Source: Nitrospira sp.
GTDB taxonomy: Bacteria > Nitrospirota > Nitrospiria > Nitrospirales > Nitrospiraceae
Reading direction: 5' to 3'
Assembly: GCA_005116945.1 (NCBI GenBank)
Contig: SWDH01000038.1
Span: forward strand, 54,122 to 105,477
DNA length: 51,356 nucleotides
Each line of letters begins with the position of its first letter. Positions within the stretch are counted from its first letter, which is position 1. Shown here piece by piece: positions 2,808 to 51,356 of this stretch. The translations under genes were made by a program, and so were the position numbers. Below the pieces are notes generated by a model. That model had not been told where the DNA came from and searched no databases. It was given only the letters and a program-made list of their open reading frames with translations.

Positions 2808-5045
2808 ATGAATGACCATCCTGAGTCCAGAGATCCCAGGCCCTATTCTTGGCTGCCGATCCTTCTCGGTGTGCTGACGATCACCACGCTGAGCATCGGC
2901 ACAATTGCATTCCGCTACATCGAAACACGCATGGTTGCGACAGCAGGCGAAACCCTGGCCCAGACAGCCGCCGAAGTGTCGGACAAACTGGACCGATTTC
3001 TCTTTGAACGGCATGGCGATGTGTTGATGATGGCGAGGACATTCAGCGTGCAGTCATACAATCAGGAATTTCAGTCGGCCTATATCGCCGGGTTGATGAC
3101 CGCATACCCGGATTACCTATGGATCGGCGCCACTGACGAACGAGGAAAGATTGTCGTCGCAACCGACCCGGCCACGGTCGGGCGTGATTACAGCGCCGAA
3201 CCCTGGTTTCAGGCCGTGCGTGGCGGGCAAGGGGTCCATATGGGGGACGTGGAGCCATTCGCTGTGATGGGCGGTCCTGACGCCATAGCCGTGACGGCTC
3301 CCATCGCCGGACTGCGCGGAGAATTCTTGGGGGTCGTGACAACGCGGGTGGGAATTCCTGGACTTGAAGACGTCATGACGAGAACCCTACTGGCATTCCG
3401 GCAGCGAGAGGGAATTTGGGGAGCGCTGGAGTATCAGTTCCTGTCTGAAAAGGGAGTGGCCTTCATCGATTCGGATCTTGAGCATAAGGGCCATGTCAAT
3501 CTCAAACTACTCGGACTCCCGTCGGCGCTGTTACGAGAAGGTACCTTGTCCGGTTACATTGAAGAGGAGCACGAACATCGCCATGTGCCCGTTATTACCG
3601 GCTATGCCAGGACTCAAGGCTTAGGTGATTATGAGGGGTTACATTGGACAGTGCTGATGCGTATGGATCGGCGCGATGTGCTGACGCCGATTCGGGAAGT
3701 TCTCTGGAATCTTGGCTTGGCAGGGAGTGTCGTGGTGGTTCCGACGTTTGGGTTCTTGATATGGACCGTCACACGTGTGAGAAGGGAATATCGGCGCGCG
3801 CAACAGGAGCGCGCGCTCGCCAGAGACGCTGAAGCGTCCCTGCGAAAGAGCGAGGCGCATACGCGGAGTATCGTCGACCTGGCGCTCGATGGCTTCATCG
3901 GGATGGATACAGCGGGAATGATCACCGACTGGAACTTCCAAGCTGAAGAGATATTCGGCTGGACCCGGCAAGAGGCAGTTGGGCGGCTCCTCGCAGCCAC
4001 CATCATCCCGGCACAACATCGGGAGGCCCACGAACAGGGATTGCGTCGTTTTCTTGCAACCGGCGTAGGACCGATGCTGAACACCAGGATCGAGATCACT
4101 GGTGTCCATCGTGGCGGACACGAGATTCCAATTGAACTAGCGATTTCGCCGTCCTTGGGACAGGGAGGCATCTACACGTTCAGTGCGTTCGTGCGGGATA
4201 TCTCGGCGCGGAAACGGACGGAGACGCAGAGCCGCATGCATGAAGAGGAACTGCAACGACTCAACGAGGCCTTGGACAGGCGTGTGCAGGCCCGCACGCA
4301 AGAGTTGGCCACCGTCAACAAATCGTTGCTTGCGGAAGTGGCCGAACGGATGCAGACGCAGATATCGCTTGAGCAAAGCCGGCAAGACTTGCAGAAGTTG
4401 GCATTCGAGCTGTTGCGTGTGCAGGAGGATGAGCGGCGTCGAATCTCACGCGATTTGCACGATGACATCAATCAGCGCCTTGCGTTGCTTGCCATGGATA
4501 TTGAAGCGGTGGGACAGCAGCTTGATTCCTCAACAGATCCCAGGGGCCGGGCCGTCCAAGAGATACAAGAGCGGGTTGTGGAGTTGTCCGATGCGGTGCG
4601 TCGCTTGGCCTATCAGCTTCATCCTTCCATTCTCGATGACCTCGGCCTCCCGATCGCTCTGCAGCGGTTGGTGGAAGACGTCACCGCTCGAAGCCGTATC
4701 CAAGGGAGCTTTGGACACAAGAATATTCCTGCAACCATCCCTCAGGAGATCGCAAGCTGTCTCTACCGCGTTACCCAAGAAAGTCTCAACAACGTGGTTC
4801 GCCATGCAGAGGCGTCTCAAGTCGATGTGGAGTTGACCGGGGCTCAATCGGAGCTGGTGGTGACGATTACAGATAATGGAGTAGGATTTGACTCCGAACA
4901 ACTCCGGAACGGATCGCATGGACTGGGGCTGCTCGGCATGAAAGAGCGAGTCGCCTTGGTTCACGGGAACTTACACGTCGTGTCTGCAGTGGGGAAGGGA
5001 ACGAGGGTGCAGGTGGTGGTGCTCGTTCCAGCGGGGGTTGCATGA
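2808..5045 (+). CDS. Membrane sensor histidine kinase (Cache-PAS-HisKA_3-HATPase)
   Basis: A 745-residue NarX/DegS-type histidine kinase. ATG 2808 is chosen because GAGG lies eight bases upstream; an in-frame GTG at 2781 would add nine residues. Layout: TM1 about 14-35; a periplasmic double-Cache-like sensor domain to about 285; TM2 about 298-321; a PAS domain about 349-470 (DGFIGMDTAGMITDWNFQAE); a coiled-coil linker; HisKA_3 with DERRRISRDLHDD, phospho-acceptor His551; and an HATPase_c domain with ESLNNVVRHAE, DNGVGFD and GLGLLGMKERV. Its stop overlaps the start of the response regulator by four bases (ATGA), so the two form a translationally coupled pair. Cache domains usually bind small periplasmic ligands; which one is unknown here. 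Confidence 0.92.
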   Translation: MNDHPESRDPRPYSWLPILLGVLTITTLSIGTIAFRYIETRMVATAGETLAQTAAEVSDKLDRFLFERHGDVLMMARTFSVQSYNQEFQSAYIAGLMTAYPDYLWIGATDERGKIVVATDPATVGRDYSAEPWFQAVRGGQGVHMGDVEPFAVMGGPDAIAVTAPIAGLRGEFLGVVTTRVGIPGLEDVMTRTLLAFRQREGIWGALEYQFLSEKGVAFIDSDLEHKGHVNLKLLGLPSALLREGTLSGYIEEEHEHRHVPVITGYARTQGLGDYEGLHWTVLMRMDRRDVLTPIREVLWNLGLAGSVVVVPTFGFLIWTVTRVRREYRRAQQERALARDAEASLRKSEAHTRSIVDLALDGFIGMDTAGMITDWNFQAEEIFGWTRQEAVGRLLAATIIPAQHREAHEQGLRRFLATGVGPMLNTRIEITGVHRGGHEIPIELAISPSLGQGGIYTFSAFVRDISARKRTETQSRMHEEELQRLNEALDRRVQARTQELATVNKSLLAEVAERMQTQISLEQSRQDLQKLAFELLRVQEDERRRISRDLHDDINQRLALLAMDIEAVGQQLDSSTDPRGRAVQEIQERVVELSDAVRRLAYQLHPSILDDLGLPIALQRLVEDVTARSRIQGSFGHKNIPATIPQEIASCLYRVTQESLNNVVRHAEASQVDVELTGAQSELVVTITDNGVGFDSEQLRNGSHGLGLLGMKERVALVHGNLHVVSAVGKGTRVQVVVLVPAGVA

Positions 5046-5686
5046 GCAAGCCTCGGGTTCTGTTGGGTGACGACCATACCTTGGTGTTGGAAGGATTTCG
5101 GAAACTGTTGGAGGATCGGTGCGAGATCGTCGGGGTGGCGGAAGATGGCCGCACGTTGGTTCGAAAGGCCTACGAGCTGAAGCCTGACATTATCACGCTC
5201 GATATCTCGATGCCCGAACTCAACGGGGTCGATGCCGCCAGAAAGTTGAAGAAGATTCTGCCTGACACCAAGCTGATATTTGTGACGATGCACGCGGACC
5301 AGGCTTATGTGAATGAAGCCTTCAAGGCCGGTGCCGCCGGCTATCTGCTTAAGCGATCTGCCGGGTCAGAATTGCTTCAAGCCGTTCAATCAGTCATGGA
5401 GGGACAATGTTATGTCACCCCCCTGGTCGCCAAAGGTCTGGTGGAGTCGGCCATCACAAAGAAGATGCCTGCAGCTCTGAAGGACAAACCCTTAACGGGG
5501 CGCCAACGAGAAGTGTTGCAACTCGTAGCAGAAGGAAAGACGGTGAAGGAGATTGCATCGGCTCTTGCTCTCTCACCGAAGACGGTCGAGTTCCATAAAT
5601 CGCAGATTATGACGCTCCTCGATCTTCACACGACGGCGGAGCTTACAAAATACGCCCTTGTCCACGGCCTCCTCACATCGGATTAG
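5042..5686 (+). CDS. NarL/LuxR-family response regulator
   Basis: A 214-residue two-component DNA-binding regulator. The receiver domain (1-120) has the acidic pair DD10-11, phospho-acceptor Asp54 (ITLDISMPELNG), Thr82 and Lys104 (YLLKRSAG). The LuxR-type helix-turn-helix (about 145-210) has LTGRQREVLQLVAEGKTVKE and ALSPKTVEFHKSQI. It is the cognate partner of the kinase immediately upstream (ATGA overlap). Palindromic sites CCCTAGGG about 65-110 bases downstream of its stop, in front of the porin gene, are candidate operators for it, but this is inference from position only. Confidence 0.92.
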   Translation: MSKPRVLLGDDHTLVLEGFRKLLEDRCEIVGVAEDGRTLVRKAYELKPDIITLDISMPELNGVDAARKLKKILPDTKLIFVTMHADQAYVNEAFKAGAAGYLLKRSAGSELLQAVQSVMEGQCYVTPLVAKGLVESAITKKMPAALKDKPLTGRQREVLQLVAEGKTVKEIASALALSPKTVEFHKSQIMTLLDLHTTAELTKYALVHGLLTSD

Positions 5687-47413: not shown

Positions 47414-48886
47414 ATGAGTCAGAACCGAGAATTGCCTTCAATTACCTCACGCCTTACGCATCACCCCTTACCGCTGATCACTCCCGACAAGTTTCACGAC
47501 GAATGCGCTGTCTTCGGCATTTACGGCCACAAGGAAGCGGCAAATCTCGCCTATCTGGGCTTGTATGCCCTGCAGCATCGCGGACAGGAAGCTTCCGGCA
47601 TTGTCTCAGGCGATGGCGAGCAGTTTTATATTCATAAGGGGAAGGGGCTTGTCGCGGACATCTACAATACCAAGGCGCTCGATCAATTGATCGGTTCGAT
47701 GGCGATCGGTCACAATCGCTACTCGACGGCTGGAGGGAATGACCTCAAGAACGTTCAGCCGTTCTCGGTCAATTTTGCGCTTGGGAACCTGGCGCTTGCC
47801 CATAACGGCAATCTCATCAATGCCCAAGTGTTGCGGCACGAGCTCGAGGCCTACGGCGCGATCTTTCAATCCAGTTCCGACAGCGAAGTCATCATCCATC
47901 TGATCGCCCATTCACGGGCCGATACGTTGCTGGCCCGCATCATCGACGCATTGAGCCAAGTGCGCGGAGCCTTTTCGATCGTCTTGCAGACGGACGAGGG
48001 GGTTATTGCAGTACGAGACCCTCATGGATTCCGGCCTCTCTGCCTTGGCCGTTTGGGCGACACCTACCTCGTGGCGTCGGAAACGTGCGCGTTCGATCTG
48101 CTCGGAGCTGAAGTGGTCCGTGAGATCGAACCAGGCGAGTTAGTTCTGCTGAACGACAAGGGTGTGACGAGTCATAAGCCGTTTGCTCCTGCCAGTCCGG
48201 CCATGTGTGTATTCGAGTATGTCTATTTTTCCAGACCGGACAGCAAGATCTTCGGAGCCAATGCGGTGTATGGCACGCGTAAGGCCTTGGGGAGGCAACT
48301 AGCGAGGGAATCGTCGGTGCCGGCGGATATCGTCATTCCGGTACCGGACTCTGGGGTGCCTGCTTCGCTTGGCTATGCCGAAGGAGCGGGGATTCCATTT
48401 GAACTTGGGCTGATTCGAAATCACTATGTCGGCCGCACCTTCATCGAACCGGAACAATCGATCCGCCACTTTGGCGTAAAAGTGAAGCTCAATGCTGTGC
48501 CTGAGGTGCTGGAGGGAAAGCGTGTTGTCGTAGTCGATGATTCGCTAGTGCGGGGTACGACGAGCCGTAAAATTGTGAAGATGCTTCGTAATGCCGGAGC
48601 CAAAGAAGTGCATATGCGCATCAGTTCGCCGCCGATTATCTCGCCCTGTTTCTACGGTATCGATACGCCTACTAAGAAAGAACTCATTGCCTCCAGTCAC
48701 ACGACCGAAGAGATTCGGAAGTACATCACGGCAGATAGCCTTGCCTACTTGAGTCTCGATGGCATGCTAAACGCCTCTCCTGGTAGACCTGACCAGTATT
48801 GCAACGCCTGCTTTACCGAACGCTACCCCATTCCTCTGACCCGCGCTGAGGAATGGCAGCTTGGCCTCTTCGAACCATCTCCCTAG
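47414..48886 (+). CDS. purF: Amidophosphoribosyltransferase
   Basis: A 490-residue first enzyme of purine synthesis. Cys31 in [13 protein letters not shown] should be the N-terminal nucleophile after removal of a 30-residue propeptide. Other marks are [44 protein letters not shown] and the PRPP loop [17 protein letters not shown]. The propeptide is longer than usual, and part of it (LTHHPLP region) is encoded by sequence inverse to the repeat between purL and purF (about 47372-47402). A start nearer the cysteine is not available as ATG. Last gene of the block. Confidence 0.95.
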
Positions 48887-49376
48887 CCCTCAAACGCAAA
48901 CTCTTCTATCCACGGTGCCCATACGTAGAGTCGTAAGTTCCCTCCGTTAAGGAAACACCTCCAAGGAGAACGTTTGACCGACGAGTTCAAGCACAATTAG
49001 AGCTAGCACGCAAGGTTTACATTGTTCAGAAATGTGCCGCACGCTGTTTTCTGCTTGTCCCCTCAAAGTACGGCTATTCAAATAGCACTAGTTCTGATAC
49101 CGTCACAAACAGTTACCATTGGTATCCTAGGCTAGAATAAGTAGAAATGCTTTGCGCATCCAACCTCGATGCGAAACACCGGTGACGCCTCACGTTCTGA
49201 GCCAACAACGTTGATTTCCCCTGGCAGAGCCAGGGACAAATGGGCAAAAGCAGTTCGTCATGAGCGTTGTGAGTCAAGCTTTCAGTCCGACCTCTCATTA
49301 GTCTTATTGTTGAGAGAGATGGATCGGAGAACATAATTCTGCCGCGTGGAGCAAATAGAAAACCATCAGATCACGG
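48887..49376. other. Gene-free gap before the RiPP cassettes
   Basis: About 490 bases with no gene I can support. The only structures I see are GATACC (49097-49102) against GGTATC (49122-49127), and a few short inverted repeats. No clear promoter. Base composition is visibly less GC-rich than the flanking purine genes. Confidence 0.4.
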
Positions 49377-49517
49377 AAGAAGGACCCATGTTGGACCCCT
49401 CTACAAGCAACCCCACCTTCAATCACCTCAGACTATCCCATCGATCGTACGATACTTGACCGAACCATCCTCCGACCCAGCCCCGATGTCCAAGGCACGA
49501 GCCTGGAGGGCGAGACA

Positions 49518-49730
49518 GTGTTGTTGGACCTCAGTACCGGGCGTTATTACACCTTGAACCAATTGGGCAGTGTTATTTGGGAGCATTGTACCGGCCACGG
49601 CACAATCAGCGAGATCCATGCGGTCCTGTGCGACCGCTTTGATGTCGCCCCTGAGCGGGCCCTAGACGATCTCGTCGCCCTGGTCAACCATCTGATCCAG
49701 GAGGGGCTACTTCAACAGGAAAGGAGGTGA
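49518..49730 (+). CDS. PqqD-like RiPP recognition protein, cassette 1, apparent 5' frameshift
   Basis: The intact part is a PqqD/B1-type RiPP recognition element: VLLDLSTGRYYTLNQLGSVI, WEHCTGHGTISEIHAVLCDR, LVNHLIQEGLLQQERR. Homology to cassette 2 extends upstream in the same frame to about 49440 (IDRTILDRTILRPSPDVQGT), but no ATG exists in that frame after the stop at 49356. A good start, ATG 49388 with AGAAGGA ahead of it, lies in another frame that ends at 49457-49459. The natural gene is therefore probably 49388-49730 with a one-base indel near 49435, or a sequencing error. As written, translation could begin only at a non-ATG codon such as GTG 49518. Its last codons carry the AAAGGAGGTGA ribosome-binding site of the precursor gene. 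Confidence 0.7.
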   Translation: MLLDLSTGRYYTLNQLGSVIWEHCTGHGTISEIHAVLCDRFDVAPERALDDLVALVNHLIQEGLLQQERR

Positions 49731-49736
49731 GCAAGC

Positions 49737-49865
49737 ATGAACACAGCGAAGAAAGAATCATATGTGCAGCCAGCGCTTGAGAGGCACGAACTGTTGCGGG
49801 ACATCACTGCGCAAAGTTCGGGCAATAACAATTGCAATGGTTCGGAAAAGCGTTGCGAGGATTAA
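49737..49865 (+). CDS. RiPP precursor peptide, cassette 1
   Basis: A 42-residue peptide gene with a near-perfect ribosome-binding site, AGGAGG, nine bases upstream. The leader at residues 9-25 is YVQPALERHELLRDITA, which keeps the lasso-type register (Tyr, Pro at +3, Leu at +5, Thr at +15). The presumed core is QSSGNNNCNGSEKRCED, with two cysteines (residues 33 and 40). Unlike classical lasso cores it starts with Gln if cut two residues after Thr, and has no acidic residue at core position 7-9. A terminator follows. It is paired with the recognition protein directly upstream. Confidence 0.8.
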   Translation: MNTAKKESYVQPALERHELLRDITAQSSGNNNCNGSEKRCED

Positions 49866-49877
49866 GTAAGCTAAGGG

Positions 49878-49916
49878 GGCTGGCCGGTTCACAGAGATCG
49901 GCCAGCCTTTCTTTTT
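49878..49916 (+). terminator. Intrinsic terminator of cassette 1
   Basis: GGCTGGCCG (49878-49886) and CGGCCAGCC (49899-49907) form a 9-bp stem followed by TTTCTTTTT. It ends the cassette 13 bases after the precursor stop. The same stem sequence recurs after precursor 2. Confidence 0.85.
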
Positions 49917-50293
49917 GTCGGGCCTGTGTTTGTTGTTGATAGTCGGGTTTCACGGCTCATGGCTCTCGCCGATCACGCCGCGCACCGTCTCTTCCTCTGC
50001 TTATGCTTCTTTGATTTCTTATGCCAGGAACCACCAGGACCTTCAGCCTCTCGCTCGTTCGATCTAACAAAGCCACCAACATGCGTTTATGCGCGTGCGA
50101 CGTTCCCCCCACCAAGGTAGGGTGCTTGCTTTGGTCTTTGTGGGTATAGGCAGAAACCCAATGCCGGGCTACCTTTCTTGAAGACGACGACAGGGCGTGT
50201 TCGAGGCTACCGAAGATCGAAGTAGGCAGTCGTTGCCGGCACAGCAGCTCGTAAGAGAGAAGCCCGGCAATGACCAAGCAAGGAGGATGGCTG
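49917..50293 (+). promoter_or_regulatory. Leader region of cassette 2, conserved with cassette 3
   Basis: No gene is supported. From about 50111 the sequence is nearly the same as 51002-51186. It can form a stem AAGGTAG (50114-50120) with CTACCTT (50169-50175), GGGT/ACCC inside it, and an alternative long stem GCCGGGCT (50163-50170) with AGCCCGGC (50261-50268). The strong AAGGAGG for the recognition protein follows. The first part (49920-50110) is only loosely similar to its counterpart at 50810-51000. Confidence 0.45.
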
Positions 50294-50635
50294 ATGGCAG
50301 ATGTAGCAGCTACAACGACATTGCCTGGGGCGACAGGATCTTCGATCGACCGAACGCAGCTCGATGGCATCATGTTGCGGACAAGTCCCGATGTCCAAGG
50401 CACGAGCATGGAGGGCGAGACAGTGTTGTTGGACCTGAGCAGTGGACGGTACTACACGTTGAACCGATTAGGGAGCGTGATTTGGGAGCATTGCACAGGC
50501 CAGAGCACGATTGCAGATATCCATACGGCAATCTGCGAACGGTTTGACGTTGTGCCAGAGCGAGCCTTCGACGATCTGGTCATATTAGCCAATGAATTAA
50601 TTCAGGAAGGGTTACTTGAACAAGAAAGGAGGTGA
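50294..50635 (+). CDS. PqqD-like RiPP recognition protein, cassette 2
   Basis: A 113-residue protein. ATG 50294 is fixed by AAGGAGG seven bases upstream; an in-frame ATG at 50270 has no such site. A variable, Thr/Ala-rich N-terminal ~35 residues precede a PqqD/B1-type winged-helix fold: SPDVQGTSMEGETVLLDLSS, GRYYTLNRLGSVIWEHCTGQ, AFDDLVILANELIQEGLLEQ. Such proteins bind the leader of a precursor peptide and present it to the modifying enzymes. The stop overlaps the ribosome-binding site of the precursor gene six bases on. Confidence 0.88.
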   Translation: MADVAATTTLPGATGSSIDRTQLDGIMLRTSPDVQGTSMEGETVLLDLSSGRYYTLNRLGSVIWEHCTGQSTIADIHTAICERFDVVPERAFDDLVILANELIQEGLLEQERR

Positions 50636-50641
50636 GGAACA

Positions 50642-50752
50642 ATGGAACAGAAGAAAGAGCAGTATGTCCAGCCGGTGGTGGTGAAGCATGAGTTGCTGCG
50701 CGACATCACGGCGGGTCAGTCCGGCTATGTCTGTCGTGAATGCGAAAAGTAG
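50642..50752 (+). CDS. RiPP precursor peptide, cassette 2
   Basis: A 36-residue peptide gene, AGGAGG nine bases upstream. The leader at residues 8-24 is YVQPVVVKHELLRDITA, nearly the same as in cassette 1. The core is GQSGYVCRECEK with Cys31 and Cys34. Cutting two residues after Thr23 leaves Gly as first core residue, and Glu falls at core position 9. That is the geometry of a Gly1-Glu9 macrolactam as in lasso peptides, though the three-residue tail would be very short. No database comparison was possible. Confidence 0.82.
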   Translation: MEQKKEQYVQPVVVKHELLRDITAGQSGYVCRECEK

Positions 50753-50766
50753 TAGCAGTCTGAACC

Positions 50767-50806
50767 GCTGGCCGATTCGTAAGGATCGGCCAGCCTGTCT
50801 TCTTGT
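50767..50806 (+). terminator. Hairpin/terminator of cassette 2
   Basis: GCTGGCCGAT (50767-50776) and ATCGGCCAGC (50785-50794) form a 10-bp stem, followed by a T-rich but interrupted tract. Equivalent in place and sequence to the terminator of cassette 1. Confidence 0.75.
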
Positions 50807-51186
50807 CGGACTAGTCTATGTTGATGATGGCGGGTTTGTCCTGCAGCCTGTCGCTTTCCAGGTTCACACCCCGTGAATTTCTTTTCTCCGTTTCATGCCT
50901 GCTTTCAGCGTCTCCCTTAGAGCCACGAGGCTTGTCACGTTCTTGCTCACATGATCGACAAAGCCAGAAAGCTATGAATTCATGCGGGTGCTTCCTTGCC
51001 ACCTACCAAGGTTGGGTGCTTGCTTTGGTCTTTGTGGGTATAGGCAGAAACCCAATGCCGGGCTACCTTTCTTGAAGACGACGACAGGGCGTGTTCAAGG
51101 CTACCAGAGATCGGCGTAGACAGTCGTCTCCGGCACAGGGCTCATAAGAGAGAAGCCCGGCAATGACCAAGCAAGGAGGATGGCTG
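50807..51186 (+). promoter_or_regulatory. Leader region of cassette 3
   Basis: No gene is supported. From about 51002 it repeats the cassette 2 leader, with GCCGGGCT (51057-51064) against AGCCCGGC (51154-51161) kept exactly. The outer stem has one mismatch (AAGGTTG against CTACCTT). AAGGAGG lies at 51173-51179. Confidence 0.45.
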
Positions 51187-51356
51187 ATGGCAGATGTAGC
51201 AGCTACAACGACATTGTCTGAGACGACTGGATCTTCGATCGACCGAACACAGCTCGATGGCATCATGTTGCGGACAAGTCCCGATGTCCAAGGCACGAGC
51301 ATGGAGGGCGAGACAGTGTTGTTGGACCTCAGTACCGGGCGTTATTACACCTTGAA
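51187..51356 (+). CDS. PqqD-like RiPP recognition protein, cassette 3 (3' end outside window)
   Basis: ATG 51187 with AAGGAGG seven bases upstream. The N-terminal ~45 residues nearly match cassette 2 (SSIDRTQLDGIMLRTSPDVQ), but the last visible bases, from about 51328, are identical to cassette 1 (LLDLSTGRYYTL coded by the same codons), so this copy is a mosaic. It runs off the window, where a third precursor gene would be expected. Confidence 0.85.
   Translation, partial: MADVAATTTLSETTGSSIDRTQLDGIMLRTSPDVQGTSMEGETVLLDLSTGRYYTL

Follow-up and report, generated by a model that had tools for sequence, protein, structure and literature searches.

What kind of peptide is made where the gene of a PqqD-type recognition protein and a short precursor gene stand side by side in repeated cassettes? 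The question arises at the right-hand end of a 51,356-nucleotide stretch of a Nitrospira sp. genome (assembly GCA_005116945.1, contig SWDH01000038.1, here C32; C32:54122-105477), which we call the window. We hold, with a little more confidence than doubt, that the cassettes belong to an island of genes for ribosomally synthesised and post-translationally modified peptides (RiPPs) in the Nitrospiraceae, and that this island is a phosphorylating lasso-peptide toolkit from which the lasso cyclase C is absent and to which some members add a graspetide-type ligase pair. This reading is carried by the gene content and its conservation, the spacing of the leader, a hydroxyl residue at core position 3 or 4, a cyclase search that gave no match over the cut-off, and the co-occurrence of a kinase with one type of core. 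The toolkit would consist of a precursor (A), a recognition protein (B1), a protease (B2), a kinase (K), a nucleotidyltransferase (N) and often an exporter (D).

Recognition and precursor genes at the end of the window

The initial annotation described three PqqD-type (PF05402) genes in a row, and these are indeed present at about 49388, 50270 and 51163, at steps of about 0.88-0.89 kb. As it also stated, each of the first two is followed by a precursor gene (42 and 36 residues), read from a ribosome-binding site over the stop of the recognition gene, and then by a strong hairpin. The features, with the recognition genes given as PqqD/RRE (RiPP recognition element), are as follows:

49359..49733, + strand: PqqD/RRE copy 1, N-terminal part disrupted; PF05402 match at C32:103633-103833, E 1.2e-18
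49737..49865, + strand: precursor 1, 42 residues; leader MNTAKKESYVQPALERHELLRDITA, predicted core QSSGNNNCNGSEKRCED (Ser3)
49875..49910, + strand: hairpin after precursor 1, GGCTGGCCGGTTCACAGAGATCGGCCAGCC then TTTCTTTTT; terminator-like
50270..50635, + strand: PqqD/RRE copy 2, 121 residues, intact; PF05402 E 5.3e-17, 62.3 bits against a cut-off of 23.4
50642..50752, + strand: precursor 2, 36 residues; leader MEQKKEQYVQPVVVKHELLRDITA, predicted core GQSGYVCRECEK (Ser3)
50767..50794, + strand: hairpin after precursor 2, same TGGCCG...CGGCCA stem
51163..51356, + strand: PqqD/RRE copy 3, truncated after its N-terminal part by a scaffold gap of 100 N at the window end

Both precursors start 6 bases past the stop of the recognition gene, and the ribosome-binding site GAAAGGAGGTGA overlaps that stop. 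The start of copy 1 had been placed at 49388, which does not hold: the ATG there opens an open reading frame (ORF) that ends at a stop at 49459 and is not the PqqD frame. The PqqD frame is open from 49359 and has no in-frame ATG; the first ATG, GTG or TTG in it is a GTG at 49518. Thus, copy 1 is either N-terminally disrupted or starts elsewhere. As the gap interrupts copy 3, no precursor can be assigned to it. Copy 2 and a fourth copy, PqqD4, are intact.

The pairing of the two genes is no chance arrangement and recurs in relatives. Across the present and related loci, an ORF with the spacing Y..P..T lies within 5-7 bases of the PqqD gene in 44 of 55 cases, and a Shine-Dalgarno-like sequence precedes the precursor ORF in all 44. 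Furthermore, the only sequences in the PDB that match PqqD4 are lasso B1 proteins (9x90, TfuB1, TbiB1).

A lasso-type leader in front of a hypervariable core

We compared 103 distinct precursors drawn from 84 loci that partly overlap, as the same contigs occur in two collections. Their leader is lasso-like, with Tyr at -17, Pro at -14, Leu or Val at -12 and Thr at -2; the collecting pattern fixes, wholly or partly, positions -17, -14, -6, -5, -4 and -2, so that -17, -14 and -2 are imposed. Position -12 holds Leu in 69 and Val in 26 precursors. The leader spacing was rechecked independently of the pattern, from gene position at 55 PqqD genes, which gave the 44 adjoining ORFs reported above. Third positions account for 51.9% of the codon differences in the leader and for 35.6% in the first six core codons.

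The core is hypervariable and 8-38 residues long, apart from a hydroxyl residue near its start: Ser, Thr or Tyr stands at position 3 or 4 in 102 of the 103 precursors, with Ser making up 9.4% of core residues overall. Ser3 is found in 64, Ser4 in 26 (some cores are shared) and Tyr3 in 16. The nine precursors of the loci L103-L110 have Ser4, and the 18 precursors of L086-L102, where no ligase genes were seen, have Ser3. A C-terminal Ser as the kinase site, as in paeninodin, was rejected (6 of 103 cores end in Ser). The initial annotation regarded two cysteines as typical of the precursors. Both precursors in the window do hold two, but as a family hallmark the trait was rejected, since two cysteines occur in only 24 of 103 distinct cores, one in 14 and none in 65.

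Maturation enzymes and the missing lasso cyclase

Maturation genes lie near the cassettes, both here and in relatives, in agreement with the earlier proposal of a RiPP-type system of recognition protein and precursor. That proposal named four kinds of enzyme to look for on the right. A B2 protease and an ATP-binding cassette (ABC) transporter lie less than 10 kb to the right on the scaffold. No asparagine-synthetase-type cyclase is in the island, which holds graspetide-type ATP-grasp proteins instead, and no radical S-adenosylmethionine (SAM) enzyme was detected among ten island proteins scanned with NCBIfam. Relatives did not show the loss of maturation genes and the broken precursor frames that would speak against a RiPP system; one recognition gene copy in genome G059 has an in-frame stop, and two precursor-like ORFs of relatives are degenerate or altered.

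Comparable islands were found in 40 regions of 38 other genomes, one-contig genome G092 among them, picked from 71 genomes with a B2 match; together with the present locus these make 41 loci. B2 is present in 40 of them. The B2 protein of the present island scores 42.6 bits with NF033537 (cut-off 33), and C117 and H151 are conserved in at least 37 of 38 aligned rows, among which is a fragment of 11 residues. The kinase is HprK-like and has the P-loop and the His-Lys-Asp-Asp feature, with H156, K177, D194 and D195 in at least 42 of 43 aligned kinases. For the nucleotidyltransferase (NTP5), the fold search gave no match at E<=0.001; its best matches, which are weak, are ANT(2'')-Ia, TM1012 and LnuA (E about 0.002-0.006). 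Nucleotidyltransferases that act on aminoglycosides and lincosamides are weakly similar to the predicted model of the N-type protein.

No lasso cyclase was seen in the islands of the 41 loci. With two asparagine-synthetase queries, tblastn found a match in one of them (L088), about 4 kb outside the island. No match of the lasso cyclase model NF033535 exceeded its cut-off (525 bits) in any of 24 genomes, in a scan that scored matches in pieces against a cut-off meant for whole proteins; below the cut-off, NF033535 also gives matches in 9 of 14 control genomes. Matches to PF00733 were plentiful, but in 13 of 13 genomes none was inside the island, the strong ones nearest to a PqqD gene being about 4 kb (G116) and about 16 kb (G107) away. 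Five cyclase candidates and two proteins of the asparagine synthetase family from the present genome were rescored whole. The two strong proteins of the present genome fit XrtA-amidotransferase and asparagine synthase models far better than the lasso model, and the candidate of G117 also fits one of these models better. Membership among the lasso peptides fails at the cyclase and at the core, and the missing cyclase at the locus suggests a peptide product of an undescribed kind.

A second module with graspetide-type ligases

In 15 loci, the present one included, the ATP-grasp genes gr1 and gr2, the recognition gene PqqD5 and one or more precursors lie downstream, and a second kinase and a fatty-acid-hydroxylase-type gene are often added; we refer to this ligase part as module 2 and to the cassettes without ligases as module 1. 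By sequence, gr2 is a homologue of graspetide synthetases (7drm, PsnB, E 6e-24). It keeps K155, E187, R195, D255, E268 and N270, which we take to be the catalytic positions, in 15 of 15 rows. The search of the PDB with the gr1 sequence gave unrelated weak matches only, and its identity was settled by the fold search: the predicted fold (pTM 0.80) is that of a graspetide synthetase, like PruB, MdnC and PsnB (PruB E 8e-18). In a joint alignment with gr2, gr1 keeps the Lys in 14 of 15 rows, E187, R195 (14/15), D255 and E268 are replaced in nearly all rows, and Ser takes the place of N270 in 13 of 15. The ATP-grasp score with TIGR04187 is 125.8 against a cut-off of 350.

Module 2 has its own class of leader and recognition protein. 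The 25 distinct leaders ending in Thr-Gly are all from ligase loci, and 14 of 15 module-2 RREs form a clade (support 96/94 on 80 columns only) with that of G006 outside. Lys, Ser or Thr together with Asp or Glu occurs in 26 of 27 module-2 cores. Graspetide leaders carry a motif that is bound directly by the ligase, for instance PFFARFL. By eye, no such motif was found in the listed leaders, which are of the lasso type.

The second kinase forms a separate, well-supported clade. A core with the motif KYxE is present in 10 of 10 ligase loci with a gene of this clade and in none of the four without it (the present genome, G054, G091 and G092, with no KYxE in 16 cores). In a check of all 15 ligase loci with a hidden Markov model, two more altered precursor-like ORFs were found that the pattern had missed (L080, L077), neither with KYxE, and a whole-genome search of the four genomes returned kinase 1 only. 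The 17 KYxE cores all belong to ligase loci. In G006, the only kinase is divergent and the position of the KYREK cores is shifted; counting this genome as positive and ignoring relatedness, the Fisher value for the association is 0.0007. The four loci without kinase 2 span two genera, which suggests more than one loss.

As a further observation, the fatty-acid-hydroxylase-type gene (L006 12330-13373 and its relatives), in one or more copies, adjoins the ligase module in 14 of 15 ligase loci (not in G006). In the accessible part of a graspetide survey, groups 33 and 39 have transglutaminase-fold proteins (PMC13097080); the survey may contain relatives of module 2. Passages searched in the main text of a graspetide phylogenomics paper do not mention 'Nitrospir', 'transglutaminase' or 'nucleotidyltransferase' (PMC8939145).

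Gene order, distribution and the scaffold gap

The right-hand part of the island lies beyond the gap, which starts directly after the last base of the window. We give its genes in the coordinates of L006 (C32:102500-121500), after the left neighbour in window coordinates:

Window 47414..48886, + strand: purF, to the left of the island both here and in many relatives, and not itself a component
L006 3080-3165: 3' end of a second purF
L006 3651-4007: PqqD4
L006 4014-4145: precursor 4, then a hairpin
L006 about 4246-5274: HprK-like kinase
L006 5271-5831: B2 protease
L006 5897-7717: ABC transporter
L006 7794-8951: nucleotidyltransferase PF14907 (NTP5)
L006 9332-10324: ATP-grasp gr1
L006 10248-11147: ATP-grasp gr2
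L006 11188-11646: PqqD5
L006 11653-11790: precursor 5
L006 12029-12157: precursor 6
L006 12330-13373: fatty-acid-hydroxylase-type gene

The usual order in relatives is [PqqD-precursor], kinase, NTP5, B2, ABC; in the present genome and G137, NTP5 follows the ABC gene. Some ligase loci have B2 directly after purF and no module 1. Loci of the N. defluvii type (L103-L110) have B2, PqqD, precursor, kinase and NTP5, with no ABC and no ligase gene (in L108 and L109, parts of the locus are outside the view). purF is beside the island in 24 of 41 loci (about 6 kb away in G006). In the other 17 it is outside the stretch, including regions of the one-contig genomes G053 and G116, and thus the island is not always at purF. 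By eye, several loci share redoxin-like, tetratricopeptide-repeat and methyltransferase-like ORFs as right-hand neighbours (L006 13682-17582, L084 16500-18809, L103 11797-15074, L106 from right to left).

Homologues of B2 occur in 71 of 175 genomes of the family (E<=1e-8) and those of gr2 in 25 of 175 (E<=1e-30). Across the phylum, the precursor profile matches 37 of 295 genomes, all in the Nitrospiraceae; the rows of the profile, which include precursors 1 and 2 in profile A3, match by construction. A degenerate leader DNA pattern was found in 43 stretches of the named genome collection, 41 of them labelled Nitrospira, Nitrospiraceae or Nitrospirae; one of these 41 is on the chromosome of Candidatus Nitrospira defluvii (FP929003.1). 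Two contigs labelled Rhizobiales (L117, L144) have the pattern and neither a precursor nor island genes, L144 giving a 22% ABC match; we rejected them as chance matches.

In the window, the stem TGGCCG...CGGCCA is found solely behind the two precursors. L006 contains it four times, two of these being the copies in the window, always behind a precursor, and there is none in L007 and L008, 38 kb further right. The predicted folding energies are -36.9 kcal/mol over 95 nt (hairpin 1) and -31.3 kcal/mol over 78 nt (hairpin 2). A stem of at least 7 bp lies within 110 bases of 81 of 102 precursors, compared to 7.7 expected from shuffles that preserve base composition only; a T-rich tail after the stem is found at only 18 of 102 (0.7 expected). 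The hairpin may be a terminator at cassette ends and an attenuator inside the operon.

The gap, followed by the second purF 3' end (C32:105478-105664, L006 2979-3165), affects how the row of cassettes is counted. A 1.1-kb stretch to its right is 79-80% identical to window positions 48800-49930 (purF-PqqD1-precursor 1), and this purF 3' fragment is the sole other strong purF match in the assembly. The join may link two versions of one locus, which makes the copy number on one chromosome uncertain; we regard the join as unsafe and did not rely on it. The initial annotation saw an expanding family in which recognition gene and precursor are copied together. Tandem recognition genes are also found in relatives, with two module-1 copies in G137, G121, G054, G091 and G057, but a simple fresh expansion is not supported, as the recognition-protein tree places copies 1 and 2 in separate subclades (weak support, only 80 columns) and copies 1 and 4 are maybe one locus in two strains. 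The kinase (L006 4246-5274) is 91% identical to that of G103, from another genus, and 74% to that of G137 from the same genus; B2 (L006 5271-5831) is nearest to those of G094 (72%) and G137 (70%). With this mosaic kinship, the island seems to be recombining.

Comparison with known systems and proposed pathway

The closest tested system is bsf of Bradymonas sediminis, which according to the accessible sections of its description also has a discrete B1 RRE, B2, an HprK-like kinase, a nucleotidyltransferase, an ABC transporter and a YxxPxL leader motif at -17 to -12 (PMC10368454). There, the kinase BsfK phosphorylates Ser3 of the core, and BsfB1 aids both kinase and protease (PMC10368454). However, bsf has the cyclase bsfC, Ile at -2, Gly1 and Asp8 (PMC10368454), whereas the present island lacks a cyclase, its precursors carry Thr at -2, and most of their cores are devoid of ring residues. 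Paeninodin and pseudomycoidin likewise have K and N tailoring genes beside lasso genes. The accessible parts of two reviews give a His-Lys-Asp-Asp set for the kinases, which we ourselves assigned to H156, K177, D194 and D195 (PMC9266682, PMC8498205). In pseudomycoidin, K and then N lead to phosphoglycosylation, the N-type proteins acting on the phosphorylated residue (same sources). The difference is that those kinases modify a C-terminal Ser, a residue rare in our cores, and that those lassos are made with a cyclase.

Graspetide systems (microviridin MdnB/MdnC, plesiocin PsnB, PruB) share with module 2 the fold of gr1 and gr2 and the conserved active-site positions of gr2; in contrast, the island has one intact and one degenerate ATP-grasp protein, a lasso-type leader, an RRE and B2. 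Lasso and graspetide enzymes acting on one peptide are known, in the accessible text of PMC13003496, as engineered two-leader chimeras. Lastly, the HprK-related ScmC and PqqD-related ScmD of SynChlorMet match weakly (kinase 24 bits, RRE 33-42 bits), far under the cut-offs (125 and 100), and the radical SAM gene is missing among the scanned island proteins. In the literature, the lasso-peptide part of which was judged mostly without full text, we found no description of such a system in Nitrospira.

By analogy with these systems, the steps as far as leader removal would resemble those of a pathway for phosphorylated lasso precursors. The discrete B1/RRE would bind the leader at Y-17, P-14 and L/V-12 and hand the precursor to the HprK-like kinase, which would phosphorylate the core at its hydroxyl residue, in position 3 or, for the N. 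defluvii type, 4. That phosphate may next receive a group from the nucleotidyltransferase-fold protein. B2, acting together with the RRE, would cleave behind Thr(-2)-Ala/Gly(-1), and a short, N-terminally decorated, non-lasso peptide would leave the cell through the ABC transporter. In module 2, gr2 and its degenerate partner gr1 probably crosslink Lys, Ser or Thr to Asp or Glu in cores that would ride on a second leader and RRE class (leader ending in Thr-Gly), and the second kinase clade would be dedicated to KYxE cores. If the recognition proteins are each matched to one class of leader in this way, recognition gene and precursor would stay adjacent as a cassette. All of these are known parts that appear to be assembled anew, into leader processing and tailoring of the lasso type that do without the lasso cyclase.

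Alternative explanations

Several points weigh against a lasso toolkit that works without its cyclase. The present genome is only 82% complete, and the right-hand part of its island is joined across the gap. No such precursor adjoins 11 of 55 PqqD genes, these misses including one precursor with Cys for Tyr and one masked by an overlapping ATG. The RREs score under the curated lasso cut-offs (47-58 compared to 80 and 45-47 compared to 70 bits), the kinase scores 62 against a cut-off of 200 for TIGR04352, and the ABC gene is present in only 28 of 41 loci, some contigs ending early. In module 2, one of the 27 cores is without the Asp or Glu needed for a graspetide crosslink, and the association of kinase 2 with KYxE is drawn from 14-15 related loci. 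One gene counted there, kinase 2 of G137 (G137:C216:14642-15631), has an in-frame TAG, another copy being on contig C181. Furthermore, BsfK left Tyr3 unphosphorylated according to the accessible text of PMC10368454, and thus kinase 2 would have to differ from it. Two more such points, 21 cores that fit the lasso-ring rule and cyclase-like proteins in four genomes, bear on whether the peptides are canonical lasso peptides whose cyclase acts in trans from elsewhere in the genome. We consider this unlikely. The leader, B1, B2, K, N and D do match phosphorylated lasso clusters, 21 of 103 cores satisfy the ring rule (G/S/C/A at 1 and D/E at 7-9), and in 4 of 24 genomes (G141 and G152 of the same genus, G107 and G132) an off-island protein fits the lasso cyclase model best (451-493 bits), making a trans-acting cyclase possible in those four. 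The probable genes, with lass_lactam_cya as the best model, are at G107:C5:362572-364178, G132:C1:2268989, G141:C1:22395 and G152:C55:73511. However, the one of G107 begins 42 bp past its own, different B2 and thus probably belongs to a true lasso locus distinct from the island. In the one-contig genomes G092, G046, G048, G053, G017, G020 and G038, the best pieces matching NF033535 reach 138-279 bits compared to 525, in a scan where the XrtA- and asparagine-synthase-type proteins of the present genome score 225 and 127. The other 82 cores break the ring rule, and for these we rejected a canonical lasso.

Another account, to which we give a similarly low probability, starts from the ligases: a graspetide system would have recruited a lasso-type RRE and B2, and module 1 would be a reduced derivative that lost the ligases. 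This agrees with the conserved active site of gr2, the shared fold of gr1 and the Lys/Ser/Thr and Asp/Glu content of the module-2 cores, and survey groups 33 and 39 may be of the same kind, as far as the accessible part of PMC13097080 goes. Against it speak the lasso type of the leader, the smaller number of family genomes with a gr2-like gene than with B2, and the lack of a ligase in 25 of 40 relative regions (one of the 25, L072, comes from G137, which carries its ligases on another contig, L071). That the peptides are never exported and serve as internal substrates or regulators, such as a phosphorylatable switch or a small carrier, and hence have freely varying cores, seems very improbable to us. 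It would explain the N. defluvii type without an ABC homologue in the island and cores of down to 8-12 residues; the exporter in most loci, the nearly constant B2 and the RiPP-like open cores of 8-38 residues behind a fixed leader argue otherwise. A different doubt concerns the array itself, which could for the most part be an artefact of assembly, two strain versions of a locus with one or two cassettes having been merged. We lean against this while taking it seriously: the gap, the second purF 3' end without a second 5' part in the assembly, and PqqD1 and PqqD4 as nearest neighbours in the tree point towards it, whereas copies 1, 2 and 3 are all found left of the gap with no N between them, and tandem recognition-gene pairs are found on single contigs in relatives.

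Implications

Under our preferred reading, a phosphorylating lasso toolkit without a cyclase, the system could be a new RiPP class, which we put forward tentatively and rather doubt. Such a class would use a lasso-type leader, RRE and protease for a product that is never lassoed, and phosphorylation of core residue 3, with a further transfer onto it, would be what defines the class; the KYxE-linked kinase would descend from HPr kinase and act as a tyrosine kinase of RiPPs, and the ligases would form an RRE-guided heteromeric pair of an active and an inactive member. If our preferred reading is true, the lasso toolkit is usable without the lasso, leader recognition being separable from cyclisation, and lasso and graspetide enzymology are joined under one natural leader type. 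The precursors would then also provide a natural series for how an HprK-type kinase selects Ser3, Ser4 or Tyr3.

Nitrospira, to which the comammox nitrifiers belong, are a major group of nitrite oxidisers. If our reading is true, an island found in many members of their family, in which hypervariable cores follow an almost constant leader, is a candidate for a chemical signal or weapon of this group.

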